Shown one piece after another: positions 966 through 59,893 of a stretch of 64,000 nt of DNA (within the stretch, counting starts at the first letter, position 1; each line of letters opens with the position of its first letter). The notes under the pieces were generated by a model that made no database searches, was not told the DNA's origin, and was given only the letters and a program-made list of their open reading frames with translations. This DNA is from Cyclonatronum proteinivorum. GTDB lineage: Bacteria; Bacteroidota; Rhodothermia; Balneolales; Cyclonatronaceae. Both the position numbers and the translations under genes were made by a program. The stretch covers positions 2,066,501 through 2,130,500 of the forward strand of contig NZ_CP027806.1 in NCBI RefSeq assembly GCF_003353065.1, given 5' to 3'.

Positions 966-974
966 AAGCCGGAT

Positions 975-1009
975 GTAACCCAGCAAAGCTGAAGCTTTGA
1001 CAGGGTTAC
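975..1009 (+). other. Long hairpin between bamD and nadD
   Basis: GTAACCC at 975-981 pairs with GGGTTAC at 1003-1009, and inside it CAAAGCT pairs with AGCTTTG around a 2-base loop. No T-tract follows, so it is not an ordinary Rho-independent terminator. It lies in the 71-base gap before the nadD start and could act on the nadD mRNA or stabilise the bamD 3' end (inference). Confidence 0.5.
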
Positions 1010-1036
1010 CGGACGGGCTGGTAGTCCCATCAAATT

Positions 1037-1636
1037 ATGCGACAGACAGCTGGGGCAAAAATAATCGGTATTTACGGGGGCAGTTTTGATCCGGTACACA
1101 AAGGGCATGTTTCCGTTGTGAAATCGGTCTTATCAGACGGCGCTGTAAATGAAGTTTGGATTACCCCTGCTGCGCAATCCCCATTTAAGCACAATGGGGC
1201 CGTTTGCCCGTTCAGGCACCGCTCAGCGATGCTTAAACTTGCATTTCAGGATGAAATGCGGGTTCGGGTTTGCGAAATTGAACAGGAGCTTCCGAAGCCC
1301 AGCTTCACCCTGCAAACCTTGCGGACCTTACGTGCGAAATATCCTGCTTACAGCTTCATGCTGTGTCTGGGGAGCGATAATCTGCGTCATTTTACCGCAT
1401 GGCATGGGTATGATGAAATACTGAAAACAACAAAACTGCTTGTAGCCCTGAGACCTGCCTTTTCAGCTGATGCGATTCCCAAAGAAGTCCTGAAGTCTGT
1501 GCAGTTTCTGAACCATCAGCCTGTAGCTGTTTCCTCAACCGATGCACGTGCGAAACTGCGTACCGAACAGTTTTCGCATGACGTTCCTGATGAAGTGAGC
1601 GCCTATATCAAGGCACATAAGCTGTACGAAACCTGA
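1037..1636 (+). CDS. nadD: Nicotinate-nucleotide adenylyltransferase
   Basis: Makes nicotinic acid adenine dinucleotide from NaMN and ATP in NAD synthesis. The 199-aa protein has the nucleotidyltransferase motif GGSFDPVHKGH near residues 14-24 (the family's GGTFDPxHxGH) and the C-terminal SSTDARAKL segment that corresponds to the ISSTxIR motif. Length is normal for bacterial NadD. It follows bamD on the same strand after a 71-base gap containing a hairpin and converges with tadA 16 bases downstream. Confidence 0.93.
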   Translation: MRQTAGAKIIGIYGGSFDPVHKGHVSVVKSVLSDGAVNEVWITPAAQSPFKHNGAVCPFRHRSAMLKLAFQDEMRVRVCEIEQELPKPSFTLQTLRTLRAKYPAYSFMLCLGSDNLRHFTAWHGYDEILKTTKLLVALRPAFSADAIPKEVLKSVQFLNHQPVAVSSTDARAKLRTEQFSHDVPDEVSAYIKAHKLYET

Positions 1637-1652
1637 ATTATGGCTACAGGTC

Positions 1653-2138
1653 TTATCGTCTGCCTTTGAAGAAAAGCTTTAACAGCGCACTGCATTCTTC
1701 TTCGAGTATACTGTGTACAATTTCAACCTGATGATTGAGCTTTTGGTTGGATGAAACGTTCATCATAGTACCACAGGCACCTGTTTTGGAATCAAGGGTG
1801 CCTATGCAAATCTGCTTCAGACGTGCAAGCACAGAAGCGCCGGCGCACATCGGGCATGGTTCAAGCGTGACATAGAGCGTACATTCCTTCAGGAATTTAT
1901 CGTTCAGCGTGCTGCAGGCAGCTGTAATTGCCTGCATTTCAGCATGGGCGGTAGGATCGCTTAAGGTCTCCACAAGATTATGACCACGTCCGATCACCTG
2001 ATTTTTATGGACTACCACTGCGCCAACCGGTATTTCTCCCTTCTGCATTGCGAGCTGAGCCTCATTCAAGGCAAGGCGCATAAATCGCTGATGATTGCGC
2101 CATGCAGAAGGATCTGTAGGTTGCTGAAACGGGGCCAA
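1653..2138 (-). CDS. tadA: tRNA-specific adenosine deaminase
   Basis: Deaminates A34 to inosine in tRNA-Arg(ACG). The 161-aa protein has the zinc-dependent deaminase signature: HAEMQAI (zinc His and catalytic Glu) near residue 65 and PCPMCAGA (two zinc Cys) near 95. The N-terminal MRLALNEAQLA segment is also typical of TadA. All three zinc ligands are present, unlike in AccD and Tdk of this window. It is a single gene on the minus strand between nadD and apt. Confidence 0.93.
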   Translation of the reverse strand: MAPFQQPTDPSAWRNHQRFMRLALNEAQLAMQKGEIPVGAVVVHKNQVIGRGHNLVETLSDPTAHAEMQAITAACSTLNDKFLKECTLYVTLEPCPMCAGASVLARLKQICIGTLDSKTGACGTMMNVSSNQKLNHQVEIVHSILEEECSALLKLFFKGRR

Positions 2139-2259
2139 TTTTTTAAGTCGTGATTAATTCAGTATTTTAGTTAGTTATTAGAAATGTAAGCATTCAAATG
2201 GTAAAATTGTCGTTTTTATATTCATCAACAATCTATGATCTGTCCCGGGGAAGAGTGCT

Positions 2260-2802
2260 ATGGATTCCATAACTAAAGATGAGCACGCGTTTTTGCTGTC
2301 GTGCATTCGTGATATTCCGGATTACCCCAAGAAAGGGATTATTTTCAAAGATATCACGCCGCTGCTGCAAAATCCTGAAGCTTTGAAAATCACCACCGAA
2401 GCCCTTACACGTCCTTATCGTGGTAAAGAAATCGATCTTGTGGTAGGACTTGAATCACGTGGTTTCTTGTTTGGTCCGTCCGTAGCCCAAAATCTGGGTG
2501 CAGGCTTTATACCCGTCCGTAAGCCCAATAAGCTGCCTTTTCATAAAATTGCAGCAAGCTACGAACTTGAATATGGCGCAGATACGGTTGAAATGCATAG
2601 TGATGCCGTAAAAAAAGGACAGCGGGTACTTATCCATGACGATTTAATTGCAACAGGTGGTACTGCCGCGGCAGCTACTGAGTTGGTGCAGAAATTAGGT
2701 GGCGAAATTGTCGGCTATTCGTTTCTGATAAACCTCAGTTTCCTTAACGGAAAAGACAAGCTCGATAAAAACGGGCTTTTTGAGGCCGTAATAACGCTCT
2801 GA
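2260..2802 (+). CDS. apt: Adenine phosphoribosyltransferase
   Basis: Salvages adenine to AMP with PRPP. The 180-aa protein shows FKDITPLL near the N-terminus, GLESRGFLFG in the middle and the PRPP-binding loop DDLIATGGTA near residue 126. Length matches bacterial Apt. The upstream 120 bases are A/T-rich and shared divergently with tadA, so they should carry both promoters, but no clear promoter elements stand out. Confidence 0.95.
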   Translation: MDSITKDEHAFLLSCIRDIPDYPKKGIIFKDITPLLQNPEALKITTEALTRPYRGKEIDLVVGLESRGFLFGPSVAQNLGAGFIPVRKPNKLPFHKIAASYELEYGADTVEMHSDAVKKGQRVLIHDDLIATGGTAAAATELVQKLGGEIVGYSFLINLSFLNGKDKLDKNGLFEAVITL

Positions 2803-2877
2803 TATTTGCGTATTTTGTAGCTGCAATTGCCGTAATTTTCAATATTATCACACGACCCTAAATAACCCTAAAACAGT

Positions 2878-3333
2878 ATGATGACAAAGAATCTAATTCA
2901 TATATCCATGCTTGTGCTACTGACGCTAACGCTTTCAGCTTGTGGCGGTCAGATGGTAATTCAAAATGTGAATTTTGCCCACCCCTTTGAAATGGTAATG
3001 GAGGCGGATGCAGAAGCCAATGTCTCAGATACCCGCTCCGGACTTACCTTCAGCATGGACAAAATTCTTGAGAAAGAAAATATCAGCCGTGCCGACTTTG
3101 CGGGCACAAGTGTCCACATGATTCGTAATCAGGATGGGCTGTACTTTTTGACTGCCCCCGGCTTCCGTCATGTATTTATTCTTGAAAGCGGCGAAGGTGA
3201 GTTAAAAGAAGCTGAAACGGTAAGAATACCCGGAGAGCGTTTGCAAAACCCTGCATTTAACCAGCGGGCACCCTTCATTCAGCTCGTTGACGGCGACCGC
3301 ACCTTCAGTCTTTCCGCAACCGGACTAAATTAA
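2878..3333 (+). CDS. Small putative lipoprotein, function unknown
   Basis: A 151-aa protein with a lipoprotein signal peptide: a hydrophobic stretch ending LTLSACGG (lipobox Cys near residue 22). The mature part has no recognised domain and looks like mixed beta-strand (for example GLYFLTAPGFRHVFILESGEG). A second ATG at 2881 is an equally good start. It precedes the coiled-coil membrane protein at 3395 by 61 bases, so the two may be co-transcribed. I do not recognise a family. Confidence 0.72.
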   Translation: MMTKNLIHISMLVLLTLTLSACGGQMVIQNVNFAHPFEMVMEADAEANVSDTRSGLTFSMDKILEKENISRADFAGTSVHMIRNQDGLYFLTAPGFRHVFILESGEGELKEAETVRIPGERLQNPAFNQRAPFIQLVDGDRTFSLSATGLN

Positions 3334-3394
3334 GCCCACACACGCTATTGCGTATTAAGATTTTAAAACACAAACAAACCAAAGTATTTTTATC

Positions 3395-4651
3395 ATGAAT
3401 CTTTTTGTCAGAGCATGCTTCATCCCTTTGTTCCTGATATTTTTTGCAGGGATAAATCAGGATATTATTGCACAGCAGTCTGATTTTCAAATTGTTCGCT
3501 CCTATCAGACGGAGTACAATGCTGTAATGGGGCAACTTCAGAATATTGAAAGTCTTCAGGATGCCGAAGATGTTATCCTGCGAATCAATCAGCTTGAGCG
3601 TGAGTTTGATGAGCACGCATCGCTTATCAACCGGTTTATTTATCCGGATGAGTTTACGGCGCAAATCAGCAATCTTCGTGAAATTTCCCGTGCGGCACGC
3701 GCTTACCTCGTCCGTATCGGAGAGCAGGCGGAGACCATAGAAGAGCTGACAAATCAGATTTCGGAGCTTACCTCCGAACTCGAACGTTTCAGCGACGAAA
3801 CAGAAAGCCTGCGTTCGCAGCTCCAAAGCATGACACGCGACAGAAATGCGAACAGAGCAATGGCACAGAGTCTGAGACGTGAGCTCGATTCACGCGACGA
3901 TTTCATCCTGAATCTTGTGGATTCCCTGTTTGTAGCCTACGATAACCTTGATATCGCAAGCCTGACCGCAGCTGAGCGACAGGAAATGACGCTGCGCGCA
4001 GACCGTGAAAACGTTGTAGGACACATTCAAGGAATTGTCGAAAGCAATATTGATTTCATTGATACGCACGGCGATTTATCAAGCGAAGAGTTTCTGCGCC
4101 TGCGTACGGTTCAGCAGCGTTTTTCAGAATCATGGGGAAGCCTGGGGACACGCCTCGCCGAAATGTATGAATCCTCTGCATCGCAGCAGGAGCAGGTTGA
4201 ACAGGTTAACGACCTGATGACAACCTGGAATAACCGGATTGAGCAGAGCGTCTGGCGTTCACTCGAAAACAGTTTTGCAAATGCAGGAATTAACCTTTCC
4301 TCTTTCAATAGCTCTGCCTCGTTTTATGCTGCGCTTAATACGCACATAGACGGAGCCATCCAAAGAACCATGGAAGAAGGTGGTAGCGAAGAAGAGTTAA
4401 GCCGCTACAACACATTTGCAGGCATCTGGTTCAATGATGTGAAGGAAAGGTGGCATGCCTTTATCGTAGAAGGCCGCGTGCTTACCTTTGAAAATATGGC
4501 TACAATTGACCGTAAGCTGAGTGACTGGAACGTAAATGCACAGCCTCCGGGACCCAATTATCTTCTGTTTGTCATTTTACTCGGGCTGGTTGTCCTAATC
4601 CTCCTGGTAGTCGTACTTACAAAAGCTTCCGGTACAAAACCGGCAAAATAA
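3395..4651 (+). CDS. Secreted coiled-coil protein with C-terminal membrane anchor
   Basis: A 418-aa protein with an N-terminal signal sequence (cut probably after IIAQQ), long coiled-coil segments with heptad-like Leu/Glu/Arg patterns (roughly residues 30-165) and one strong transmembrane helix near the C-terminus (YLLFVILLGLVVLILLVV), followed by a short basic tail. This predicts a mostly periplasmic rod anchored to the inner membrane. No enzymatic motif is visible and I do not recognise the family. It is followed by a good terminator at 4685-4727. Confidence 0.72.
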   Translation: MNLFVRACFIPLFLIFFAGINQDIIAQQSDFQIVRSYQTEYNAVMGQLQNIESLQDAEDVILRINQLEREFDEHASLINRFIYPDEFTAQISNLREISRAARAYLVRIGEQAETIEELTNQISELTSELERFSDETESLRSQLQSMTRDRNANRAMAQSLRRELDSRDDFILNLVDSLFVAYDNLDIASLTAAERQEMTLRADRENVVGHIQGIVESNIDFIDTHGDLSSEEFLRLRTVQQRFSESWGSLGTRLAEMYESSASQQEQVEQVNDLMTTWNNRIEQSVWRSLENSFANAGINLSSFNSSASFYAALNTHIDGAIQRTMEEGGSEEELSRYNTFAGIWFNDVKERWHAFIVEGRVLTFENMATIDRKLSDWNVNAQPPGPNYLLFVILLGLVVLILLVVVLTKASGTKPAK

Positions 4652-4684
4652 ATCTGTTCAGCTTTACAGCTTTGAAGATTCAGA

Positions 4685-4727
4685 AAGGTGGTTTGCGGTG
4701 TTCTCTGTCCGCGAATCACCTTTTTTT
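4685..4727 (+). terminator. Rho-independent terminator after the coiled-coil gene
   Basis: A 13-bp stem (AGGTGGTTTGCGG with CCGCGAATCACCT, including G-T pairs) is followed at once by seven T. It sits 34 bases after the stop at 4651. Confidence 0.85.
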
Positions 4728-4849
4728 ATGTGACTTATGTTTTTCGAAATGAATCAGCAGTTTGCTTTGTTGCGCTTCATAAGTTATAATTGAAAAGCGA
4801 CGCTTACGCTTTTCTGGTTTTATTCAACATTTCTATTGCAACCACTCCT

Positions 4850-5368
4850 ATGCTAACTAATCCTAATCTTAGGCTGATTGACGCCCTTCGTAAAACAGCA
4901 AAACGTCTCGATTCCGGCGCTGAATACAACTGGTGCCACATGGGACGATGTAATTGCGGTCATCTGGCCCAAACCATTACCGAATTGTCACCCGCTGAAA
5001 TCCATGAAATGGCATTGCTTAAAGCAGGAGACTGGACCACGCAATCTGTAGAACACTGTACAGCTACAGGACTCACCATAGATCACATTATAGCATCCAT
5101 GCTTGAGCTGGGGCTTACAAGGCAGGACATTGCTAACCTTGAACGGCTTGCTGATCAGCGCGTTCTTATGCGTATTCCGCTCGAACGGAGAAAAGAAATG
5201 AGTCATAAGAACAGAGCGGATGTTGTCTTATATATGAATACTTTAGCGCAAATGCTTGAAGAGCAGCTTCTTAACTCTGTGCCGCCCGCAGAAGTGCTCT
5301 TATCTAAGATTTCGGAAGAAACCAAATCCAAAAGCATAAAATCGAAAATTGCGGTAGTAAGTCAATAA
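4850..5368 (+). CDS. Conserved-looking cytoplasmic protein with a Cys/His cluster, function unknown
   Basis: A 172-aa protein starting at the ATG at 4850 (MLTNPNLRLIDALR); the longer frame from 4790 begins with an unlikely hydrophobic leader. The most striking part is NWCHMGRCNCGHLAQ near residues 27-41, with three Cys and two His in 11 residues, which could hold a metal. The rest is predicted helical, with a repeated hydrophobic heptad in EQLLNSVPPAEVLL. No known enzyme family is recognised. A strong terminator follows 17 bases after the stop. Confidence 0.7.
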   Translation: MLTNPNLRLIDALRKTAKRLDSGAEYNWCHMGRCNCGHLAQTITELSPAEIHEMALLKAGDWTTQSVEHCTATGLTIDHIIASMLELGLTRQDIANLERLADQRVLMRIPLERRKEMSHKNRADVVLYMNTLAQMLEEQLLNSVPPAEVLLSKISEETKSKSIKSKIAVVSQ

Positions 5369-5385
5369 CAGAAATAAATTTTGAG

Positions 5386-5421
5386 AAAAAAAGACCTGAT
5401 GTTGAATCAGGTCTTTTTTTT
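5386..5421 (+). terminator. Rho-independent terminator
   Basis: GACCTGAT (5393-5400), a 5-base loop, and ATCAGGTC (5406-5413) form a perfect stem flanked by an A-run before and eight T after, so it can end transcription in both directions. It closes the gene ending at 5368. Confidence 0.92.
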
Positions 5422-5552
5422 GGAAGAAGATTTCTGCTACGAGTATTCCATTCGTGTTTTCTATCCGATTAGCTTTATATTACTAAGGCGTGCAAACCAG
5501 CATGGTTGTATCATTCATTTTTGTAACATTAGCCTCCTACAATTAGTCATAA

Positions 5553-6269
5553 ATGGAAGTCCTTAGCTCTGGTAAAACATCGTTTAAAGTAGAAGTCCCT
5601 TACAAACTATTTCAAACCGGCGAAAATCGTCCAAAGCCGCTCATCGTGTATTTGCACGGTTCCGGACAAAATATTGAGGGTTTTGAAAAAAAGATGATAT
5701 CGCTTCAGGGTATAGAAGCCTATCATTTGTTCATTCAGGGACCGTATCCTGATTTCAGGAAAGTTAAGCACAGAGGCAAATGGGGTTTTGGGTGGTATTT
5801 GTATAACGGGAAGCAGGGTGCCTTTAAAAAGTCGCTTGAGTACACATCTGAGTTTATTCAGTCTATTATAGATACCGTAACGCTGCGTCTGCATGTGAAC
5901 CGTTTGTGTATTATCGGCTATTCTATGGGTGCGTATCAGGCAGGCTATTTTGCCTTCAGCAGATGGAAGCATACCAATGATCTTATTATGATAGGTGGCC
6001 GTTTGAAAGCAGAGTCCTTCAACGAAAAGCGTTTTCGCAAATGCGGGCACATAAATGTGATTGCCATACATGGCAAGCAAGATACAATTGTCCCGATAGA
6101 GGCGCAGCGGGAAGCGCTCAACTTAATTAAAGAGCATGGTGTGCCTACACGAATGATTGAACTTGAGTCAGATCATAAAATGACAGATAACGTACCTCAC
6201 CTAATCATTGACACCCTTAGTCAAATTGGGTACGATACCGTCAAAATTACGCAGGATACCAATCAGTGA
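5553..6269 (+). CDS. Alpha/beta-hydrolase, carboxylesterase/phospholipase-like
   Basis: A 238-aa cytoplasmic hydrolase. It has an oxyanion-type segment LIVYLHGSGQN near residue 30, the nucleophile elbow GYSMGA (Ser near 130), an acid in HGKQDTIVP (Asp near 174) and a C-terminal His in SDHKM. This order is that of the esterase/phospholipase or dienelactone-hydrolase branch. The substrate cannot be read from the sequence. It is followed after 34 bases by a response regulator on the same strand. Confidence 0.82.
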   Translation: MEVLSSGKTSFKVEVPYKLFQTGENRPKPLIVYLHGSGQNIEGFEKKMISLQGIEAYHLFIQGPYPDFRKVKHRGKWGFGWYLYNGKQGAFKKSLEYTSEFIQSIIDTVTLRLHVNRLCIIGYSMGAYQAGYFAFSRWKHTNDLIMIGGRLKAESFNEKRFRKCGHINVIAIHGKQDTIVPIEAQREALNLIKEHGVPTRMIELESDHKMTDNVPHLIIDTLSQIGYDTVKITQDTNQ

Positions 6270-48886: not shown

Positions 48887-51800
48887 TTAGCCGGTCTGAT
48901 TCAGTTTTTTTACCCGTTCCAGCAAATCGTCAATTACGGCCTCATTTCCTCTGAACACGCCTTCGATGCCATCCTGATCAAGGAAATCAAACGGAGGTTC
49001 GTATAAAGTGCCCACTTCAAGGCTGCCTTTTTCGGTATAAAAAGAGATCATCTGTTCAATAAAACTGATTTGGTTGGCCGTCAGACGGTTATCGGTGAGA
49101 TAGTCTTCGAAATGCCTCAGAACGGCCGTTTTTTCAAGCCCGCTGCATGTACGGATGAACTGCACCAGATTGATGCCTTCCCCAATGGCCTCATGTAAAA
49201 CAGACAGGTCTGTATCCGGATCGGATTCCATCAAAAAAGTTTCGAGTGTTAGAAGCTCTTTGTCGGTCAGGGGCTGTGCGTTTCGGATTTTTTGAATGAC
49301 AAGGTGCGTTTGGTGCTCTTCAATGAACTTTTTCAGCTTACGGCGGTAGCGCTCATAATCTACGGTTGTACCTGAGGTATCGTAGTTCACAACCGCCGGA
49401 CTGTCGAAGGTATCCTGAAAATCAGTGTAGACAATGGACCGCTTATGCTGATCTATGTGCTGTATCAGATGGCGCATATCAATTCTGACCTGCTCGAGGT
49501 TTGAAAGGCTTGCTTCATCCCAAAAGGCTTCATCCTTTGCTTTGCGCAGGGTTTCGCTCACTTTTTTGATGGCAGGGATGTGGCGTTTGGCCCAAAGGTG
49601 CTCCGCAAAGCGTACGACGGTTTCTTTGGTCTGACGCGAAGACAGAACGCCATCCAACAGCTGATGCTGCAACACCAGCATCAGGTGATCGAAGTAGCGC
49701 ACGGTCTCGTGCTCGGAAAGATCAACCGGCAGAATCTCGCCAAGCGCAGCGCAGATTTCCTTGCGTTCCCCGGACTGCAGGTGCTCCCAAACACCCCTGT
49801 CCTGCAGGCGGTCGATAAGTCTGAGATGTGGTCTTACCTGTATGCTCTGCCGCTCCAGCCCTGACACCTGCTGATGCAGCATATTGAGCAGTTCTTCGCG
49901 GTAGTGCTGAAGGGCTTCATCCTGTTTCCACGGAGCATTGCTCAGTTTCGCTGCTAACAGCAGACGCTTTTCAAAAATTTGTGCCTTGAGCGACGGAGGC
50001 ACAGTCGTATCTGCTCCTTCGGGGTTCTGATTAAAAAATTCAAAGTTTCCGCAGTAGTCAAAAATCAGAAAGTGTGTTTTGTGTTCACCGGGGCTGAACA
50101 GGTTTTTGCAGAGACGTGTGCCGCGACCTATCATCTGATGAAATTTCACTCTTGATTTGACCGGCTTGAAAAAGACCAGATTCACAACTTCGGGCGCATC
50201 TATGCCGGTATCCATCATGTCAACAGAGACCGCAATAACCGGCGCTTTACTTTCCGTTGAACAAAAAGCATCAATAAGTTCCTGCGCGTACTCAACCTTG
50301 TTATGAATCATTCTGCAGAAATGCCCGGCATAGTGCGGGTAGTTTTCGTCAAAGATTTCACAAATGTACTGCGCATGTTTTTGGTTGCGGGCGAAAATAA
50401 TGGTTTTGCCGAGCCGGTCGCCGCCTTCTACTTTCAGTCCGTGTTCCATCAGCTGCCCGAGTACCTGTTCGACCGTATCGCGGTTAAAAAGCCATCGGTT
50501 GAGTTTTTCAGGTTCAATATGCTTGGGCATGGTGCCGGTTTCGTCATCCCCAAGTAAGTCATCATACTGCTGTTTTTCTTCTTCGCTTAAATCCTCGTAG
50601 CGGATACCCTCGGTAAGGAATTTGCCGGTTACGGATATTTTTTGAGGCGGCACCAGGTAGTTGTCTGCTACAGCCTGCTCCAGTTCATAGGCAAAAGTCG
50701 GATTCCCGTTTTCACAGCCAAAAGTTTTATAGGTATCGTGCTCCAGCTCATCCTTTGGGGTTGCTGTCAGCCCGAGCTGAAGCGCGTCAAAATACCGGAA
50801 GATGGCTTCATACTTGTTGTAGATACTGCGGTGCGCCTCATCTATAATGATGAGGTCGAAGTAGCCCGGGTCAAAGCGCCGAAACCCATGCTCAAGCTTC
50901 TCGATCTGATTGAGCATGGTTGGATAGGTGGAAAACACGATGCGGGCCGCAGCGTCATTTTTATCTTCGACCAGGTTAACAATGGGAATCTCGGGCAGGT
51001 GTTCCGCGAAGCTTTTGTAGGCTTGTCTCACCAGCGGGTTACGGTCAGCCAAAAACAGTACGCGTTTGGCCCATTTATACCGGAACAGCACATCGCAGAC
51101 CGAGATCGCCGTTCTGGTTTTTCCTGTGCCGGTTGCCATAACCAGCAATGCTTTTCGATGACCCTGCTGAAAGTGACCGGTAACTTCCCGGATGGCGTGT
51201 ATCTGATAGTAGCGGCCCGTAATCTCATGTTTTACCGAAACGACCCTGAGTTCCTGTTTTTCGCGTTTCTGAAAGAAGAGTTTTTGAAGGCTCGCCTTGT
51301 TATAAAACCCCAGAACCGGCCGCAGCGGATAGGCGGCATCATCCCAAATGTAGGTTTCGTAGCCGTTTGACAAAAAAATCACGGGGCGCTGCGCAAACTT
51401 TTTTTCCAGGGCATTGGCATAGTGACGGGCCTGCTCCTGACCTTCCAGAAAGTCGCGGTTACTCCGCTTGGCTTCTACCAGCGCAAGCGGCTTACCGGTA
51501 TCATCCCAGAGCACATAATCAATGTACCCTTTCCCGCTTTTGCTGGGCATCCCGCTGATTTCATATTCCCGCACGTTTGGCGCGGCAGGATCCCAGCCGC
51601 TTTCCCGAAGCATCACATCAATAAGCAGCTCACGGGTTTGGGACTCATTATAATCGTGTGTGTCTGCAAACCTGCGGCTCTGCAGCCGCATCTGTTTGAT
51701 TTCCCGGTTCCGCTGTGCCAGGGCTTCATCTTTTTCGCCCAGCGCCTGCTCCAGCGCCCGAAGACGGGCCGCGGCTTCCTCATTTTCTTTGGACAGCCGC

Positions 51801-52264
51801 TCCAGCTCAGCCGGACCAACCGGAGACTGTTCCGGTATGGCCGGTACCAAAGCACGGCTGAAGGTGAAGTTCTGAACGGTGACATCTTCCGGCGCATAGG
51901 TGCTGTAGAGCCAGTACATCACATGAAAACACTCTTCGCAGATTTTGAGCGCTTCTTCCGCAGAAACCCGTCCCTTTTGATGCAGGGCCTGATTGCCCTT
52001 CCGCCGGATCAGGTCCATTTTCTCCCACACCTTGAAGCCTGTGATTTTCTTAAAGGCTACTTCATTTGTGATGGTGTAGAAGGAGGTATCGGCAGGAATC
52101 GTCAGATCTTCATCATTTTTGTACATCCAGAGTACCACCTGTTCCACGAGATGCCGGGCCCGCCCACAGGCCATCTTGGGATCAAAAAATACAAGGCGCT
52201 CAACGGCCTGTGCCTCCTCAATAAATTCAGGCCAGTCCGGCTGCAGAAAGGTGAAATTAGACAT
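48887..52264 (-). CDS. hsdR: Type I restriction enzyme R subunit
   Basis: A 1125-aa EcoEI-like motor/nuclease subunit. Order: DUF4145-like N-domain (about 1-115), a coiled-coil (150-200), a PD-(D/E)xK nuclease with Asp249 in YIDYVLWDD and Glu264/Lys266 in LVEAKR, then a superfamily 2 helicase with Walker A ATGTGKT (377-383), DEAH (475-478) and TATP (500-503). The long C-terminal part should contact HsdM. All catalytic residues are present. It is separated from hsdS by about 4.8 kb. Confidence 0.95.
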   Translation of the reverse strand: MSNFTFLQPDWPEFIEEAQAVERLVFFDPKMACGRARHLVEQVVLWMYKNDEDLTIPADTSFYTITNEVAFKKITGFKVWEKMDLIRRKGNQALHQKGRVSAEEALKICEECFHVMYWLYSTYAPEDVTVQNFTFSRALVPAIPEQSPVGPAELERLSKENEEAAARLRALEQALGEKDEALAQRNREIKQMRLQSRRFADTHDYNESQTRELLIDVMLRESGWDPAAPNVREYEISGMPSKSGKGYIDYVLWDDTGKPLALVEAKRSNRDFLEGQEQARHYANALEKKFAQRPVIFLSNGYETYIWDDAAYPLRPVLGFYNKASLQKLFFQKREKQELRVVSVKHEITGRYYQIHAIREVTGHFQQGHRKALLVMATGTGKTRTAISVCDVLFRYKWAKRVLFLADRNPLVRQAYKSFAEHLPEIPIVNLVEDKNDAAARIVFSTYPTMLNQIEKLEHGFRRFDPGYFDLIIIDEAHRSIYNKYEAIFRYFDALQLGLTATPKDELEHDTYKTFGCENGNPTFAYELEQAVADNYLVPPQKISVTGKFLTEGIRYEDLSEEEKQQYDDLLGDDETGTMPKHIEPEKLNRWLFNRDTVEQVLGQLMEHGLKVEGGDRLGKTIIFARNQKHAQYICEIFDENYPHYAGHFCRMIHNKVEYAQELIDAFCSTESKAPVIAVSVDMMDTGIDAPEVVNLVFFKPVKSRVKFHQMIGRGTRLCKNLFSPGEHKTHFLIFDYCGNFEFFNQNPEGADTTVPPSLKAQIFEKRLLLAAKLSNAPWKQDEALQHYREELLNMLHQQVSGLERQSIQVRPHLRLIDRLQDRGVWEHLQSGERKEICAALGEILPVDLSEHETVRYFDHLMLVLQHQLLDGVLSSRQTKETVVRFAEHLWAKRHIPAIKKVSETLRKAKDEAFWDEASLSNLEQVRIDMRHLIQHIDQHKRSIVYTDFQDTFDSPAVVNYDTSGTTVDYERYRRKLKKFIEEHQTHLVIQKIRNAQPLTDKELLTLETFLMESDPDTDLSVLHEAIGEGINLVQFIRTCSGLEKTAVLRHFEDYLTDNRLTANQISFIEQMISFYTEKGSLEVGTLYEPPFDFLDQDGIEGVFRGNEAVIDDLLERVKKLNQTG

Positions 52265-52494
52265 GACTATGGTTAAGGTTCATTCACATCGGGTGAAATA
52301 GCATCGAGCAGACCGAAGTCGAACGAAAGGCTTCAGATTCCTGAATACCAATTTAATTTAAAATTTACCGGCATAGCATTGTCGGATGGAAAATAAGAAG
52401 TGTATAAGAATAAGCGTATGGTAAACCAATATTAAGGTAAGCAAAAGACAATCATAATACTTCATAATCGAATATCAGAGGGGATTCTGCAGGG

Positions 52495-53424
52495 TTATCC
52501 CCAATCGCGCCAAAGTATTTGCTGCAGTTTCTCACAAGCTGCTTTGTGTTTTTTGGGATTCATTTTTTCCAGATTTGCCATTTTCCAGCGGATGCCCGGT
52601 AAGGACTGTATTTCGCTATGAGGAAACAAATGCCACTTCGGGAATCCCTGCTTAAAACTTAGTATGAATTCCCGCTCACCTTCCGTAAAGTCCTGATTCA
52701 GTTTTTGCACAACCATTTTCCAGGATTCAACCAAATCATCCAGCTTAACCGGCTCAAACGCCATACCTTCAAAGGATTCGTGAAAGGTTTCTTCAAGATC
52801 ATCTTTTAGTTTGGGATCAAGCAATTCGGCAATTGGGCGGTTATGACTTAACAGATATACAATGAATGCCTGACGCACTTTGTCTGTGATTCCTGCATTT
52901 TTATACAGATGATGCACATCGAAAAGATCCCTGGGATGCTGCCTGTCTAAGGCGGCACAAAGTTTTCCAGCATAAAGATCCTCAACCGATAATGTTCTGA
53001 CCTCCATTGTTTTTCCAAACATTTCTTCCACTTTTTTTGCCAAAGGAAGTTTTACCGGCGGATAGACCGAGCCACGAATGGTTAAATTAGGCTCAATTTT
53101 GACGACGATTTGCCCGCAATTGATAATCAGTCCATACGACAGACTTCCCTTTGTTTTGTAATTGATTTCCGCCCCCGCTATAAATTTTTTGCACCTGCTC
53201 CCAATCTCTTTGAGGTGAAGGTCGATTTTTGTTAGGGTTGTCAGCCTGTCTTGTATCGGGAGGTACGTCAGATCAATGTCAACCGATAGCCGTGGAAAGT
53301 CCTGAACAAACAGATTAATTGCAGTTCCCCCTTTGAGTGCAAAATCCTCTGTGCGGGAAACAATTGGCAAAACAGTTAATAGCAGGTCAACCTGTTTAAA
53401 GTAAGCACTGCTTCTTATGTCCAT
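52495..53424 (-). CDS. abiEii: AbiEii-type nucleotidyltransferase toxin
   Basis: A 309-aa protein of the AbiEii/AbiGii family. The nucleotidyltransferase core shows KGGTAINLF (31-39) and SVDIDL (Asp49, Asp51), with a later VKIEPNL segment and the motif LYAGKLCAALDRQHPRDLFD (about 152-171). Such toxins block growth, in some cases by modifying tRNA, and act in abortive phage infection. Its start overlaps the stop of the antitoxin by 10 bases. The 230 bases between it and hsdR show nothing clear. Confidence 0.92.
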   Translation of the reverse strand: MDIRSSAYFKQVDLLLTVLPIVSRTEDFALKGGTAINLFVQDFPRLSVDIDLTYLPIQDRLTTLTKIDLHLKEIGSRCKKFIAGAEINYKTKGSLSYGLIINCGQIVVKIEPNLTIRGSVYPPVKLPLAKKVEEMFGKTMEVRTLSVEDLYAGKLCAALDRQHPRDLFDVHHLYKNAGITDKVRQAFIVYLLSHNRPIAELLDPKLKDDLEETFHESFEGMAFEPVKLDDLVESWKMVVQKLNQDFTEGEREFILSFKQGFPKWHLFPHSEIQSLPGIRWKMANLEKMNPKKHKAACEKLQQILWRDWG

Positions 53425-54200
53425 GATACTTCCGGCACCTCCTTTGGTACTGTTATCTCGAACGTACTGTTTAGTTTCCCGTTTTTCACAATTGTTCTTT
53501 TCCCTGAACCGAGGTCTATTTCACTAACTTTGAGCTTGTCGTACCAGGGCAACCCATGCGTTTCCGCCATAAAAAGAAATAAACGTTTCACTTTCACTGA
53601 GGTGCAGTCTGTTAAAAGGCGCTGTACCAAAGCGGGCCTTAGGGTCATCATTCCTTCTGTCAGCTCCCATGCTTTTATAAATTTGGGTTTTGAGTTCACG
53701 TGAGAAAGCAGTTCCATAATGGCACGCTCGGGCTCTGACATCAGTACCGGTATGCCGCTTGCTGTTTCTATTGCTTGAACCCCTAATTTTTTGCCTTTAA
53801 ACAATGTTGATATATGCAGTTTTATATCGACCTGCCAGTCATAAGAAGTAAACCAGGCGGGAAGCTTTCTCTTTGAGGGGGTGTATAAATGACACTGATT
53901 CAAACGCGGACTTATATTTTGACGAACCCCATGCAGCTCCAATGCGGTCTCTCCGCCTACATGTATGGCGTATCCAAGCTGATGTTGCAGGGCATGCACC
54001 GCGCCCTCCCATAAGGGCTCATCCTGTGTTTTCATAAAGGCCCCGGTTCCGATTGACTTAACCCAGTTGCTTTTTTTGTAGCCAAAGAGCATATCCGGGG
54101 TGTACCCGTTGGCCGAAAGCCAGGGCGACGTATATATCATACCCTCTTTCCACCCTGAAAGCAGTTTGTTGAGTTTCGTGTTTCTTTGATTTGGTGCCAT
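53415..54200 (-). CDS. abiEi: AbiEi-type antitoxin
   Basis: A 261-aa protein with an N-terminal winged-helix part (about 1-60) and the AbiEi segments ALQHQLGYAIHVGGETALEL (near 70-90), HLYTPSKRKLPAWF and MSEPERAIMELLSHV. AbiEi proteins repress their own operon and counter AbiEii in a type IV toxin-antitoxin system. Order antitoxin-toxin with a 10-base overlap is standard. Both catalytic toxin motifs and this gene are intact, so the pair should be functional. Confidence 0.92.
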   Translation of the reverse strand: MAPNQRNTKLNKLLSGWKEGMIYTSPWLSANGYTPDMLFGYKKSNWVKSIGTGAFMKTQDEPLWEGAVHALQHQLGYAIHVGGETALELHGVRQNISPRLNQCHLYTPSKRKLPAWFTSYDWQVDIKLHISTLFKGKKLGVQAIETASGIPVLMSEPERAIMELLSHVNSKPKFIKAWELTEGMMTLRPALVQRLLTDCTSVKVKRLFLFMAETHGLPWYDKLKVSEIDLGSGKRTIVKNGKLNSTFEITVPKEVPEVSWT

Positions 54201-54562
54201 TGGTTTAAAAAAGTCTTGTTTGATAGAATATAAACCAATCTATTGAAACTATTCCAAACCTACAAAGCAGCAGACAAGTTTACTTTGGTTCTCATTAATT
54301 GACGCATAACCCATTAGCGGAAACTTTTTCAAACCAGTAGAGCGGAAATATTTGATTGGCACTTCGGAGCTGTCCTTTTGGCAATTCAGGGATAAGCCGA
54401 AAGCCCGCCTCACTTTCAAACCTCTAATCAGCTCAGTATGGGACTTCTTGACTTCAATACAGACAGGGACAGCTTAAAAAGAAAGATTGTCGTCCGCTTG
54501 TCTTGTTACTTTTTTGTAAGTATATTTATAAGAGTAATATTTTAAACCAAAGTAATTAAGCT
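54201..54562. other. 362-base A/T-rich intergenic region
   Basis: It separates divergent abiEi and the unknown gene at 54563 and must carry both promoters. TATATTTATAAG at about 54522 resembles a -7 element for the plus-strand gene, but its -33 partner is unclear. An abiE operator repeat is expected here but I could not identify one with confidence. Confidence 0.35.
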
Positions 54563-55570
54563 ATGACAACCATCAATCCACACCACTTCAACTCCGTTCG
54601 TACCTCGTTTAAAATAACAGCGGAAGCTGATGCACTGCTTGAGCAGCTTGCCGACAGGTACAACATCACTCAAAAAGAACTCTTACTTACGCTTATGATT
54701 AAACATACCGACTTAGCTGCCCGTGATCTCGTGTCTGTTGATCCCAAGGCAACATTTGTGACGAAAACCAAGGTCATGGCCCAGGCTGTACTACAGTTTC
54801 TGGGAAAAAAGGCAAAAGAGCTGGCAACACATCGGGATACTATTCTTGAATCCCTCATTTATAAAGGCAGGGAAGGATTGCAAACCGAGCAGGAAGAAAT
54901 TGAAGCCGTAATTCCTGACCTGAAAGCGGTCTCGGAGCAGCTCAGACAAATCAGAACCGCTAACGGATTAGGCCCGGAACACCCCGCAAACACAAGAATT
55001 GATATTCTTGAAATTATGGTAGATAATCTTACCTCGAGCCTCGAAAGTTATCTTAAAGAAGGAGTTCCAATTTCTTCCGATGATTTTTCAGACAGCGGAG
55101 CCTCACCCGCACCTCATGTTGCGCAGGCTGATGTAATCCCAGCCAACAGCTCTTACCTCAAGGTTTACAAGTCAAGGGTACCGAATTCAAGCATATCCCT
55201 GGAGCAGGCTGTGCCCACGCAGACCTTCATAAATCTGGTGAAGCGAGAGGCTGATAAGGTGCTGTTAAAACAGAAGAGCGCTCATCACCTGTGGGATTTT
55301 GGTGTTCGTGCATCGCAAGACATTGAGCAGGATGATACGATGTGGATCCTAACGGGTGAAACGCTTTATAAAGCCAGCGTTACGTGCATTATTGCTGATC
55401 CGGCCGGTTCAATAGGGGACGCTATTGGATGGGTGCGCCAATACAAAAAACCCTGGAAAAATGTTTGCGTACTCAGCCAAGTGGAAAAGCAATCTTCCAT
55501 TCCCGCACACATCAGGTCTGCCATGCACAACAAAGCTGCTGAAATCCATCGAAACTTCTTTCGGTTATAG
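54563..55570 (+). CDS. Unknown protein with ribbon-helix-helix-like N-terminus
   Basis: A 335-aa protein I do not recognise. Residues about 13-47 (TSFKITAEADALLEQLADRY, then ITQKELLLTLM) look like a ribbon-helix-helix DNA-binding unit. Residues 75-165 are helical and charged, a Ser/Pro/Ala-rich linker follows near 178-195, and the C-terminal 130 residues are mixed alpha/beta with several Trp and Tyr. It reads opposite to the hsd and abi genes. A DNA-binding or nucleic-acid-sensing role is only a guess from context. Confidence 0.7.
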   Translation: MTTINPHHFNSVRTSFKITAEADALLEQLADRYNITQKELLLTLMIKHTDLAARDLVSVDPKATFVTKTKVMAQAVLQFLGKKAKELATHRDTILESLIYKGREGLQTEQEEIEAVIPDLKAVSEQLRQIRTANGLGPEHPANTRIDILEIMVDNLTSSLESYLKEGVPISSDDFSDSGASPAPHVAQADVIPANSSYLKVYKSRVPNSSISLEQAVPTQTFINLVKREADKVLLKQKSAHHLWDFGVRASQDIEQDDTMWILTGETLYKASVTCIIADPAGSIGDAIGWVRQYKKPWKNVCVLSQVEKQSSIPAHIRSAMHNKAAEIHRNFFRL

Positions 55571-55953
55571 AGGGTCAATACTCCCTTAAAAACCTGACCG
55601 CTGAGCATGCAACATCGGGAAACGACCAACTCAGGCTTGCAATCTATTCAGCCCTTCTGCCTCTCTTCTCTGTAGCTTATCCCCGAGATGTTTAGCCGGT
55701 TTCGGCTTTCCGGGAGCGTTATTTTCATTTCGGGAGCGTTATTTTCATTTGATGATGAAGTCAGAATACTCCTTATGGGTTTTTAAGCTGTATTTTTTGG
55801 GAAAACTCAAATTTTCTGTGCGATTTGAGTTAGCTATAGATTTTTTTAATCCCGATAAACGCGCACATATCCAAAGGTCCATCACATAAGAACGCAGCAA
55901 ATTATGCTGTGCCATGCAATACCGATAGTACAAAGGTTATTTACACTTCAACC
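55571..55953. other. 383-base intergenic region with a 20-bp tandem duplication
   Basis: It contains two exact adjacent copies of CGGGAGCGTTATTTTCATTT at 55711-55730 and 55731-55750. The remainder is A/T-rich with no supported gene; the open frame upstream of 55954 lacks a sensible N-terminus. It should hold the promoter of the gene at 55954. Confidence 0.6.
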
Positions 55954-56730
55954 ATGAGTAAAAAAGAATCCATAACCATCCGCGTAAACGGCAGAATCGG
56001 GGAAAAAGAGATTTCACCTGAGCTGTTCGATATTTCTGATATCAGGAGCTTAATAAACGATTTTGAGAATATGCTTTTTCCCGATTCGAAAAAGAAAAGG
56101 CCTCCTGTTTCATATATGATAGAAAAAGGTTCGGTTGTTAACACATTTACAACCTCGAGACAGGAGGTGCTTGGTTTTCAGGCGCTTCTGATTGATGTCC
56201 AAAAGCATAATTCATTAGATCTCCTCGAACTTAAGTCAGCAGCTGCTTTTGAAAATCTTCAGCGGAATGCTGATGAAACCAATCTTACCTACGAGATTTC
56301 GACATCTCTTGCGGCAGACTCAAGCCCTTTGATAATTTCACCCAATACAGCATGGAAGCGAACAGATGATATATGGGTAGATGCAGAGTTTTATGTTTAT
56401 GGCGAAATCACCAATGCCGGAGGGAAAAACAATAGTAACATACACGTAGATACCAAAGAGTATGGCATACTCACCATAGCCACAGACAGATTTACTTTGA
56501 AGGAAAAAGAAGAAAATATTCTTTACAATACCTACGGCGTACGTGTTAAGGGTAAACAGCACATCGAAACCGGTGAAATGGACCCCAAAAGCCTTCGATT
56601 GATTGAGTTGATCAATATGAACAAAAAGTACGATGAGAACTACCTTGAATCACTAATTGCTAAGGCTACACCACGTTGGGAGGGTATTGACGCAGAAGAA
56701 TGGTTAAACGAGCTAAGAGGGACCAATTAG
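55954..56730 (+). CDS. Unknown cytoplasmic protein of the defence island
   Basis: A 258-aa protein starting at the ATG at 55954 (MSKKESITIRVNGRIGEKEI). Predicted mixed alpha/beta; the N-terminal half has SPELFDISDIRSLINDFENML and YMIEKGSVVNTFTTS, the middle a beta-rich stretch (YVYGEITNAGGKNNSNIHV), and it ends WEGIDAEEWLNELRG. No transmembrane helix or catalytic motif is seen. I recall no named family. It converges with the lone antitoxin, overlapping its stop by four bases. Confidence 0.7.
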   Translation: MSKKESITIRVNGRIGEKEISPELFDISDIRSLINDFENMLFPDSKKKRPPVSYMIEKGSVVNTFTTSRQEVLGFQALLIDVQKHNSLDLLELKSAAAFENLQRNADETNLTYEISTSLAADSSPLIISPNTAWKRTDDIWVDAEFYVYGEITNAGGKNNSNIHVDTKEYGILTIATDRFTLKEKEENILYNTYGVRVKGKQHIETGEMDPKSLRLIELINMNKKYDENYLESLIAKATPRWEGIDAEEWLNELRGTN

Positions 56731-56945
56731 CATTTCAAGCCGCGTAAAATATCACCTTTACTTTCCTCCCAGGGTGAATAGGTGACTTCATCCTTCTTGA
56801 TCGCATTTTTTCGACGATTCAGTTCATCGCCATGCCATGAAGGCAAGGTGTAGTCCGGCGTGGACGATAAATCGTCCCAAAGAGCTTCCATGAGCTGTAT
56901 TTTCTCAGGAAGGCTAAGTTTTTTTATGGAGGGTTTGTTGTTCAT
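56727..56945 (-). CDS. Addiction-module antitoxin (Unstab_antitox-like) without toxin
   Basis: A 72-aa protein from ATG 56945 (or 75 aa from 56954). The pattern LSLPEKIQLMEALWDDLSS, then LPSWHGDELNRR and YSPWEESKGDIL matches the small 'putative addiction module component' family that normally neutralises a RelE/ParE-type toxin. The expected toxin gene just downstream on the minus strand is absent: that position is occupied by the convergent gene. It may be a leftover or protect against a toxin elsewhere. Confidence 0.75.
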   Translation of the reverse strand: MNNKPSIKKLSLPEKIQLMEALWDDLSSTPDYTLPSWHGDELNRRKNAIKKDEVTYSPWEESKGDILRGLKC

Positions 56946-57104
56946 ACCTTTCAAGTTAACATATTATCCATTCATTTCAAGTGCTTAGTTTTTGGGCAAT
57001 ATAATACCCTGCCATCATCACCATACTCAAAACTTTCTCGTATATGTAACTGCAGTTGCCATGATGATGTGGCTTTGGGGTGATGCCATATCCGAATTCT
57101 CTTT

Positions 57105-58220
57105 TCAGGTTTTTGAAAACGCTTGTTGCACGAGAGATAAAAAAAGGCTTTCAGACTTTTGCATAAACTGTTCAGCCGATTTTATCTCAGAGTCAATTTT
57201 TTTGAATATTTCAGTAAAATGTTTTTGACTTTTTATGTCAGGTACTGGAACTAAAATTTCTTGGAATTTAGACTTTTTCAGAATCGGTAAAGTGGTTGAT
57301 TTGGCATTTCTTTTTATTTCATTTTCCAACAGTTTTAAAGCAATGTACCCATATTCATCGGTGACAGCGCCCCGCTTCCATTCAATTGTGTTAATTTGTT
57401 GATTGAAACCACTCGTTTCAGTTGCAATACCCACTTTTCCAATTGTTGCTCCAATACAACAAACCATTGTAGCTCCTTTCCTTACTGACTTACTGTATCC
57501 CAAACCTTCATTAGATAAGAACCTTGTTGGGGATATTTCTCTTTTACCGAGATCTGAAGGAGTGACAAAAGGAATGTCACCTATAAAAAACTCCGGCACT
57601 TTTGTACTTGGTGTTTTTCCCGTTTGCACTTTCCCCACATCCCCCAATTTCCTAACCTCCCACCCCTTCTCATTCCGTACCGGGTCCCCGAACATATCCA
57701 AAAATACGCTTTGGATGAGGGCGTCGTATTTGGCGAGCATTTGACGGTCAATGTCAATCAGGCGCTGCGCACGGTCAAGCTTCGCGACAATGGCGCGCTG
57801 CTCGGACAGGCTGGGGAGGGGGATTTTGAGATTTTTTAAGTCTTTCTGTGTAATTGAATTAAAAGTTGATCCACGTCCGGAGTCAGAAATCTTTTGCTCA
57901 ACTTTACTAAAGTAATACCTCAAATAGCTTCTATCAATTTCAGCTCCAACTCTAATCGCTGCAAGACCACGACCTATACAACACCTTTCATTAGCTATGT
58001 TAGTTGGCCCTACCGGTGCCCTAACTGAAAATAAAATGTCACCTTCATGAGCTATTTTTGTAGGTTTAATGCACCAAGTAGAAACAGATGGGTATTTTTC
58101 TCCAAAGTCAGCCTTGCCTTGGAAAAATGGTATACCTAGGCCTTCACTATTATAAAACTCTGATTTAGGAGATTGACCCTCAATAACTTCAGCTATGTCT
58201 TCAAGCTTCACCCACTTCAC
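57105..58220 (-). CDS. hsdS: Type I restriction-modification specificity subunit
   Basis: A 371-aa HsdS with two target-recognition domains (about 1-150 and 185-330), each followed by a conserved helix: LPSLSEQRAIVAKLDRAQRLI near 140-160 and VPDIKSQKHFTEIFKKID near 328. Repeated hallmarks are GDILFSVRAPVGPTN and the second-half GATMVCCIGATIGKVG. The start is GTG at 58220, overlapping the hsdM stop (GTGA). The recognition sequence cannot be predicted by eye. Both halves are complete. Confidence 0.93.
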   Translation of the reverse strand: MKWVKLEDIAEVIEGQSPKSEFYNSEGLGIPFFQGKADFGEKYPSVSTWCIKPTKIAHEGDILFSVRAPVGPTNIANERCCIGRGLAAIRVGAEIDRSYLRYYFSKVEQKISDSGRGSTFNSITQKDLKNLKIPLPSLSEQRAIVAKLDRAQRLIDIDRQMLAKYDALIQSVFLDMFGDPVRNEKGWEVRKLGDVGKVQTGKTPSTKVPEFFIGDIPFVTPSDLGKREISPTRFLSNEGLGYSKSVRKGATMVCCIGATIGKVGIATETSGFNQQINTIEWKRGAVTDEYGYIALKLLENEIKRNAKSTTLPILKKSKFQEILVPVPDIKSQKHFTEIFKKIDSEIKSAEQFMQKSESLFLSLVQQAFSKT

Positions 58221-59065
58221 AGCATCCCCTCCAATTCATCCAAAATCCGTAGCCGCTCTTCGGCAAGCTGACGCAGGCCCAGCTCGCCGTCTTTTCCGTT
58301 GATGATGGTGAGCGGGTCATCATATTCCACCTCCTCATATTCCATCTCTTTGTAGCGGTTGATCGAAAGATCATAGCCCTGCGCCACGATTTCCGCTTTC
58401 GGCACCATGAAGCTCTTGTCCGTGCGCTTCCGTTTGGCCTCTTCCTCCGGCTTGTGATAGCGGGCCACAATATCCGGAATGTCGTTTTCCTCCACCGGCG
58501 CGCGCTTGTCATCGAGCGAGAAGCCGTCGGCCTGCATGTCATAAAACCAGACGTTCTCGGTACCGCCCGAATTGGTCTTGGTGAAGATGATGACCGCCGT
58601 GCTCACCCCGGCATACGGCTTGAACACCCCGCCTGGCATCGAAATTACGGCGTTGAGCTGATGCCCTTCCACAATCAGCCTGCGGATTTCCCTATGGGCG
58701 GTCGAGCTTCCGAAGAGCACGCCGTCCGGCACGACGACCGCGGCGCGTCCGCCCAATTTCAGCGCCCGAATGAAGAGCGCGTTAAACAGCAGCTCCGTTT
58801 TTTTGGTCTTCACGGTTTGCAGCAGATCGGTTGCTACGCTGTCATAATCCAGCGACCCTTTGAATGGCGGGTTGGCCAGAATCAGGTCAAAGCGGTCGCG
58901 CAGGGCCGCGCTTGTGCTCGAGAGCGAATCCATGTAATCAATCGTTGCCCCGTCGAAGCCGTGCATCACCATGTTCATGTTGCCGATGCGCAGCATAGAA
59001 CTGTCGAAATCATAGCCGGTAAACATGTCCCGCTGAAAATGACGGCGCACCTTTTCATCAATCAT
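58217..59065 (-). CDS. hsdM: HsdM, C-terminal part (motif IV half)
   Basis: A 282-aa ORF holding the second half of a type I adenine methyltransferase: RIGNMNMVMHG, the catalytic motif IV ANPPF near residue 84, and the C-terminal helical region. It starts at an ATG (MIDEKVRRHF) that overlaps the stop of the N-terminal half (ATGA). Together the two parts make about 488 aa, close to a full HsdM. Either the gene is frameshifted or it is a translationally coupled split enzyme. Confidence 0.9.
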   Translation of the reverse strand: MIDEKVRRHFQRDMFTGYDFDSSMLRIGNMNMVMHGFDGATIDYMDSLSSTSAALRDRFDLILANPPFKGSLDYDSVATDLLQTVKTKKTELLFNALFIRALKLGGRAAVVVPDGVLFGSSTAHREIRRLIVEGHQLNAVISMPGGVFKPYAGVSTAVIIFTKTNSGGTENVWFYDMQADGFSLDDKRAPVEENDIPDIVARYHKPEEEAKRKRTDKSFMVPKAEIVAQGYDLSINRYKEMEYEEVEYDDPLTIINGKDGELGLRQLAEERLRILDELEGML

Positions 59066-59682
59066 GGCCGCGGCATGATGTACTCGCCCGCCGCAACCAG
59101 GAAACCCGCCGTGCCACAGGCGAGGTCCGCAATGAAATCGGTCGGCTGCGGACGGGTGAGTTCCACCATCATCTTAATAATATGCCGGGGCGTGCGGAAC
59201 TGCCCGTTCTGACCCGCAACACTCAGTTTGGAGAGCATGTACTCGTACATATCGCCCTTGGTATCGCGGTCGCTGAGGTCGAGTTGATCGAGCAGCTGCA
59301 CGACCCGCGCCAGGGTAGAAGCCTTCGGAAACATGAAAATGGCGCCTTCCATGTGCTTGCGGTAGGTGCTACCGTTGGCACCGCCCAGCGCCTTGATGAA
59401 GGGAAAAACGTCATCCCTGATGCGGTCGAACATCGCCTGCGGTTCAAGCTCCCGCAGGTTGCGCCACCGCAACTGCTGCTCCTGTGGCCAGAAAACCGGA
59501 TGCTGAACCGGGATGCCGGTTCGCTCAGCCCGGCGCTCTTCGCGGCTCTGCTGATCATCGAGCCCTTTGATAAACAGCAGGTAGGTAAGCTGCTCAATAA
59601 CAGTTAGCGGATTGGAGATGCCCGCGGTCCAGAGCGTCTCCCAGATTTTATCGACCTTGTTTTTTAATTCGCCGGTAAGCAC
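59062..59682 (-). CDS. hsdM: HsdM, N-terminal part (SAM-binding half)
   Basis: The GTG at 59682 begins VLTGELKNKVDKIWETLW, the normal HsdM N-terminus; the longer frame to 59823 runs into the flanking repeat. The 206-aa piece contains the HsdM_N helical domain and the SAM motif DLACGTAGFLVAAGEY, then ends six residues later. In intact homologues the chain continues directly into the LxDEKLRxHF region, which here begins the next ORF in another frame. A small deletion of about 8-10 bases would explain the break (inference). Confidence 0.9.
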   Translation of the reverse strand: MLTGELKNKVDKIWETLWTAGISNPLTVIEQLTYLLFIKGLDDQQSREERRAERTGIPVQHPVFWPQEQQLRWRNLRELEPQAMFDRIRDDVFPFIKALGGANGSTYRKHMEGAIFMFPKASTLARVVQLLDQLDLSDRDTKGDMYEYMLSKLSVAGQNGQFRTPRHIIKMMVELTRPQPTDFIADLACGTAGFLVAAGEYIMPRP

Positions 59683-59809
59683 GGAATCTAATTTTGAGTG
59701 ATATCTGATATAAAGGATGTGTTTCGGCCTTACATTACAGGCATTGCCGCAATGATGCAAGCTTTTTCGGGCGAATTTCAACCCTGATGCGTTGCAAGCC
59801 TTGCTCACC

Positions 59810-59893
59810 ACTATAAGCCCCAAACCTTATATTTTGAATTATAAGCCTTGAAGCTTATATTCTTGATTATAAGCCCTGGAACTTATAGTTTGG
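59810..59893. repeat. Tandem array of three 28-bp hairpin units, right copy
   Basis: Units at 59810, 59838 and 59866 with the same 28-bp period and ATAAG-N-CTTAT dyads as the left array. Unit two is identical to left unit three; the first and last show small changes. It lies between the hsdM promoter region and satD. Confidence 0.92.

Follow-up and report, generated by a model that had tools for sequence, protein, structure and literature searches.

The 258-aa gene of a cargo site between hsdS and hsdR in Cyclonatronum proteinivorum is probably the orphaned partner of a PIN nuclease

The DNA analyzed here, called the window, is a stretch of 64,000 nucleotides (nt) from Cyclonatronum proteinivorum (contig NZ_CP027806.1, positions 2,066,501 to 2,130,500). 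Its interval 52265-57104 extends exactly from the start of the type I restriction gene hsdR (52264) to the end of hsdS (57105). We interpreted this interval as, probably, a decaying toxin-antitoxin/defence cargo site in the restriction locus, in which a gene for a protein of 258 amino acids (aa) is the orphaned antitoxin side of a two-gene pair formed by a partner and a PIN nuclease. The contents of the site would be an AbiE pair that looks intact, one or more antitoxin-side genes left as orphans, and a near-ORFan of 335 aa. The AbiE pair, the hotspot and the Unstab_antitox gene are ordinary. What is new is the widespread and unnamed partner-PIN pair, which is present at this site only as an orphan.

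The features that bear on the orphan are these:

55954-56730, plus strand: gene of the 258-aa orphan partner, candidate antitoxin side of a PIN-nuclease pair (ATG start)
56720-56730, plus strand: junction, where homology to a complete partner-PIN pair ends (pairwise DNA alignment and ends of open reading frames, ORFs)
56727-56954, minus strand: lone Unstab_antitox (RelB-like) gene, 75 aa (PF09720, 2.6e-17; TIGR02574, 3.3e-12)

An alternative GTG start, 45 nt upstream of the 258-aa gene, would give a protein of 273 aa.

Searches of Pfam, NCBIfam, PADLOC, PHROGs and the PDB sequences returned nothing convincing for the 258-aa protein. A match to iHKD (E 0.02) was not reproduced by its relatives. 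Homologues were collected from the order, together with 80 more from GTDB genomes (a few of them the same loci). With a profile made from five PIN neighbours, 82 of the 88 ORFs of the family were seen to have a same-strand PIN ORF immediately 3' of them. The usual gap between the two genes was -8 to -17 nt, i.e. they overlap by 8-17 nt. When the six exceptions were read, two proved to have an intact PIN gene (L057 and L084), one an interrupted PIN gene (L059) and one a truncated one (L089). The remaining two were a fragment of a broken gene (L046) and the window copy. Several other PIN ORFs were short or displaced, and probably broken.

The pair was found in about 83 other loci, in Bacteroidota, Acidobacteriota and a Bordetella plasmid, plus two viral contigs. 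The plasmid homologue, from Bordetella bronchiseptica, was at 24% identity and had its PIN gene. The viral pairs (L150 3581-4835 and L151 524-3428) lay one amid phage structural genes and one beside a DNA methylase-like gene. A second, complete pair was present in the same genome as the window, at 700282 (L007). By eye, the region around it (L171, G000 694000-708000) also held a HigBA-like pair, a Doc-like gene and a transposase.

The PIN neighbours matched Pfam PIN. Glu50, Asp103 and Asp123 were kept in 78 of 78 PIN proteins and Asp9 in 73 of the 78, so the catalytic acidic residues that an active PIN nuclease should have are conserved. A constant two-gene unit of a small gene with a PIN toxin-type nuclease is a classical sign of an antitoxin, as argued by Makarova et al. 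2009 (PMC2701414). Since the 258-aa family forms such a unit, its members would be antitoxins. None of the known VapB-type antitoxin families (RHH, AbrB, PHD etc.) was recognised among 48 members, and the partner is modelled as OB-like. No partner of the 258-aa type is among the PIN partners described in the available part of the same paper, and the pair is unnamed in Pfam, NCBIfam, PADLOC 2023, PHROGs and the literature searched.

The window copy has no adjoining PIN gene. No PIN ORF was present within the 400 nt scanned downstream of the 258-aa gene, and tblastn of five PIN proteins against the window gave nothing significant. It was the only locus examined without any trace of a PIN gene. 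The closest complete pair, in a Gracilimonas metagenome-assembled genome (L022), showed 70% DNA identity over the whole 258-aa gene, and the homology stopped at 56720, some ten nucleotides short of the last base of the stop codon. The plain reading of these alignments is that the PIN gene was lost from a formerly complete pair, probably by deletion. The L022 pair (960-6083) lies between recJ and a gamma-glutamyltransferase gene, as named by eye. The same place is the site of the whole hsd locus in another relative (L167 2282-15197).

The 258-aa protein was modelled with AlphaFold2 from 44 sequences, at a mean predicted local distance difference test (pLDDT) score of 84. In the model, the N-terminal half is of alpha/beta type; a beta barrel (residues ~126-221) and two C-terminal helices follow. 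The C-terminal 30-40 residues were of lower confidence (pLDDT 61-68); they carry the invariant R255 and the near-invariant W242, W250 and G256. A Foldseek search of the PDB matched the barrel to RPA14, IF-1, ExoVII and BrxL, which we take to be OB folds.

In the complete pairs, partner and PIN are probably co-translated, and the partner most likely keeps the PIN RNase inactive. By analogy with VapB proteins, its flexible C-terminal tail with the invariant Arg perhaps blocks the PIN active site. Stress or infection would then free the PIN protein to cut RNA. In the window, loss of the PIN gene would leave the 258-aa gene without its own toxin to control at the locus. The orphan may be a relic, or it may still neutralise related PIN toxins, e.g. 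that of the second complete pair of its own genome. Toxin-antitoxin genes have been discussed as anti-addiction modules (PMC4803016); that the window orphan acts as such a gene is a guess. A bolder version, which we consider doubtful, is that OB-like partner and PIN form a toxin-antitoxin or anti-phage family that has not been described before and that occurs in several phyla, on a plasmid and in viral contigs. The partner would bind nucleic acid as well as restrain the PIN RNase, and the window orphan would have been kept for anti-addiction.

Several observations weigh against an orphaned antitoxin in a decaying site. A protein of 258 aa is long for an antitoxin. The modelled OB-like barrel could equally belong to a subunit through which an active nuclease binds RNA or DNA. 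The OB matches themselves were at the domain level only (E ~1e-3 to 1e-1), and TM-scores for the query as a whole were low. Conserved patterns were used to retrieve the loci, and close relatives are therefore the best sampled. The 258-aa ORF of the window is intact and ~74-75% identical to its L022 counterpart, which suggests that decay is recent or that the gene is still useful. Finally, the absence of PIN could also reflect replacement instead of simple deletion.

The state of the surrounding locus was consistent with decay. The remaining features are these:

48887-52264, minus strand: hsdR, type I restriction subunit, bounding the cargo site on one side (Pfam ResIII/EcoEI_R_C; PADLOC REase_I, 2.3e-205)
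52495-53424, minus strand: AbiEii, nucleotidyltransferase, predicted toxin of the AbiE pair (PF08843, 3.3e-37; PADLOC AbiEii, 2.4e-112)
53415-54200, minus strand: AbiEi, predicted antitoxin/repressor of the AbiE pair (PF11459, 1.6e-43; PF17194, 1.3e-24; PADLOC, 1.8e-80)
54563-55570, plus strand: 335-aa near-ORFan, with a tandem RHH-like head (~10-174), a linker and a C-domain (~196-335)
57105-58220, minus strand: hsdS, specificity subunit, the other flank of the cargo site (PF01420, 2.4e-47, two stretches)
58217-59065 and 59062-59823, minus strand: hsdM, split into ORFs of 282 and 253 aa by a 10-nt deletion frameshift

The list of ORFs bore out the gene map of an earlier note on this DNA: AbiEi and AbiEii as a pair, a lone antitoxin gene (here assigned to Unstab_antitox) and, on the plus strand, two genes (335 and 258 aa) without a database match. 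The G+C content was 40-47% in the cargo genes and 51% over the remaining leftward part of the window, a difference that acquired genes would be expected to show.

The hsdM gene lacked 10 nt compared with its relatives, just after the region of the AdoMet-binding motif (window 59062-59080). In most relatives hsdM is a single ORF of 491-512 aa; here the two ORFs are coupled by an ATGA overlap. A simple base-calling error is a less likely source of a 10-nt loss than of a 1-nt loss. A functional type I restriction system has hsdM, hsdS and hsdR intact; with hsdM frameshifted, the system in the window may be inactive or split. The broken hsdM together with the orphaned antitoxin suggested a decaying locus.

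The earlier note had also remarked that genes nested in type I restriction operons are often further defence systems. Other genomes supported the reading of the gap between hsdS and hsdR as a cargo site for defence and toxin-antitoxin genes. Eight Balneolales-type hsdR flanks were read, with HsdR proteins 62-67% identical to that of the window; one of these relatives (L169) has its own hsdS and hsdR broken. All eight had extra genes in the gap, one at the fewest and about nine at the most, and no two sets were alike. The cargo that could be named included RloB with an AbiLi-like ATPase, an AbiEi/AbiEii pair, a TIR-domain protein, a Fic protein, a SocA-like antitoxin and a PIN-like DUF5615 protein. 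An unnamed protein of ~236-250 aa, grouped by eye, was seen in the gap of five of the eight (L163, L164, L165, L166 and L168; e.g. L164 7570-8286 and L166 8325-9035), the L163 copy being two ORFs of 118 aa. The two copies tested had no Pfam match. In gammaproteobacteria, defence systems have been reported at the hsdS-hsdR site, which was described there as a potential hotspot of recombination (PMC12255303). The hotspot itself is therefore already known, and these loci extend it to another phylum.

The AbiE pair named in the earlier note is real. AbiEi and AbiEii both gave strong family matches in Pfam and PADLOC. As in AbiE systems, which are type IV toxin-antitoxin pairs, AbiEi is followed by the AbiEii nucleotidyltransferase gene with an overlap, here of 10 nt, and both look intact.

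The 335-aa protein gave only chance-level matches in Pfam, NCBIfam, PADLOC, PHROGs and the PDB sequences, among them TRADD-N (E 0.016) and shikimate dehydrogenase. No full-length relative was found in several hundred genomes, 72,556 plasmids and 50,697 phage records. Its first 174 residues were shared, at 27% identity, with a 381-aa protein (L008) of another family in the class, and the head also occurs as stand-alone proteins of ~205 aa in the same genus as the L008 protein. The 381-aa protein has a different C-domain, and a search for relatives of the C-domain of the 335-aa protein in 394 genomes, plasmids and phages gave only noise. An EVE/PUA-like C-domain was considered and found no support. 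RptR, a type I regulator known from the literature, was also set aside as an identity, RptR being a 79-aa all-helical protein encoded upstream of hsdM (PMC12255303). The C-terminal domain of the 381-aa relative (L008 1408-2553) recurs behind an RHH-like head (L017 1336-1887) and on alphaproteobacterial plasmids, the loci including L020 5797-6372. In one case it immediately precedes a DrmD-like helicase whose end is type III restriction-like.

The earlier note had described this protein as an RHH-like head, a linker and a C-domain. By eye, the head looked like two RHH motifs in tandem and a helical stretch; the fold was not confirmed by modelling, as the AlphaFold2 model from the single sequence (pLDDT 40) was too poor to use. 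The best description of the 335-aa protein is a near-ORFan that may be a DNA-binding regulator; no finding links it to defence. With a tandem RHH DNA-binding head and a sensor domain, it might more specifically be a transcriptional regulator of the restriction or cargo locus. The two RHH-like motifs, a weak match to the phage regulator profile PHROG 3887 (E 0.006) and the sharing of the head with stand-alone small proteins all point that way. Given the unconfirmed RHH fold, and relatives of the head that do not adjoin restriction genes, we hold this assignment tentatively. When the translations around the partial relatives were read by eye, no recognisable defence genes were seen beside them.

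The reading of the 258-aa protein as an antitoxin had to be weighed against another, in which it is a nucleic-acid-binding subunit that targets or senses for a two-subunit PIN nuclease. That nuclease would be an anti-phage effector, and a lone subunit such as the window copy would be inactive. The OB-like barrel and the unusual length for an antitoxin would be explained, and so would the setting of the viral pairs. The best match of the model among viral models was a DUF6575 protein (E 3.4e-8 over 259 columns, TM-score 0.37), and DUF6575 is present in an experimentally selected Escherichia coli defence system (PMC9519451). This similarity is structural and did not extend to sequence: PF20215 (DUF6575) had no match in the genome of the window and none among 48 family members. 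Profile comparison of the 258-aa family with one DUF6575 protein gave no support either, and no PIN neighbour was seen at the one DUF6575 locus read. The relation, drawn from models, is a lead only. Partner-then-PIN order with a short overlap is typical of toxin-antitoxin pairs, and the conserved Arg/Trp tail also argues for an antitoxin. We consider a nuclease subunit unlikely.

The Unstab_antitox gene offered another explanation of the missing toxin. Its 75-aa product is a PF09720/TIGR02574 protein. The RelE-type toxin gene is absent directly after it, and the convergent 258-aa gene occupies that place. At 56727-56730, precisely the place expected for both toxin genes, the 258-aa gene and the Unstab_antitox gene overlap by their stop codons, and the end of the L022 homology at 56720 fits a double-toxin deletion. 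A single deletion could thus have taken two convergent toxin genes, PIN after the 258-aa gene and RelE after Unstab_antitox, and left both antitoxins. On the other hand, the best relative of the Unstab_antitox protein (55% identity; G009, L118), which comes from another genus of the family, likewise has no RelE. It is convergent to a distant 258-aa homologue (17.7 bits) followed by a gene read by eye as PIN-like. The lone state may therefore be older, and RelE was perhaps never present, which makes the double deletion improbable. Because the L118 antitoxin likewise lacks RelE beside a partner-PIN pair, the order of partner, PIN and convergent antitoxin may be the older state, from which only PIN was lost in the window. 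No convergent Unstab_antitox gene was found beside the partner-PIN pairs of the 83 loci.

The weakest proposal, that of the earlier note, was to join the 335- and 258-aa genes in a single undescribed defence module. They are on the same strand, 383 nt apart, and both inside the defence cargo site, but a gap of that size makes one operon unlikely, the 258-aa homologues pair with PIN, and the two proteins did not recur side by side in the other genomes searched, which leaves hardly any room for a joint module.

The two unrecognised genes have become two separate, testable statements. A PIN-nuclease pair with a large unnamed partner is common in Bacteroidota and extends to a plasmid and viral contigs, and the family and defence databases searched do not list it. 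The orphaned copy is a natural test case for the question whether a lone antitoxin is a relic or an anti-addiction gene.

Compared with known systems, the AbiE genes of the window agree in content, order and overlap with the AbiEi_3/AbiEii system, with no visible difference. The complete partner-PIN pairs resemble VapBC-type pairs in being two-gene units with an upstream partner and an overlapping PIN gene that keeps its acidic residues. They differ in the partner, which is ~258 aa long and modelled as alpha/beta plus OB-like, whereas VapBC antitoxins are 70-90 aa long and of RHH, AbrB or PHD type. DUF6575 proteins are like the 258-aa model by fold only, the sequence and profile tests being negative. 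The cargo site occupies the same place in a type I restriction operon as the published hsdS-hsdR cargo, i.e. DarTG2 in enteropathogenic E. coli, and an RNA-binding protein with an AAA ATPase in gammaproteobacteria (PMC12255303). It differs from them in belonging to another phylum, in carrying other and partly orphaned cargo, and in its broken hsdM.

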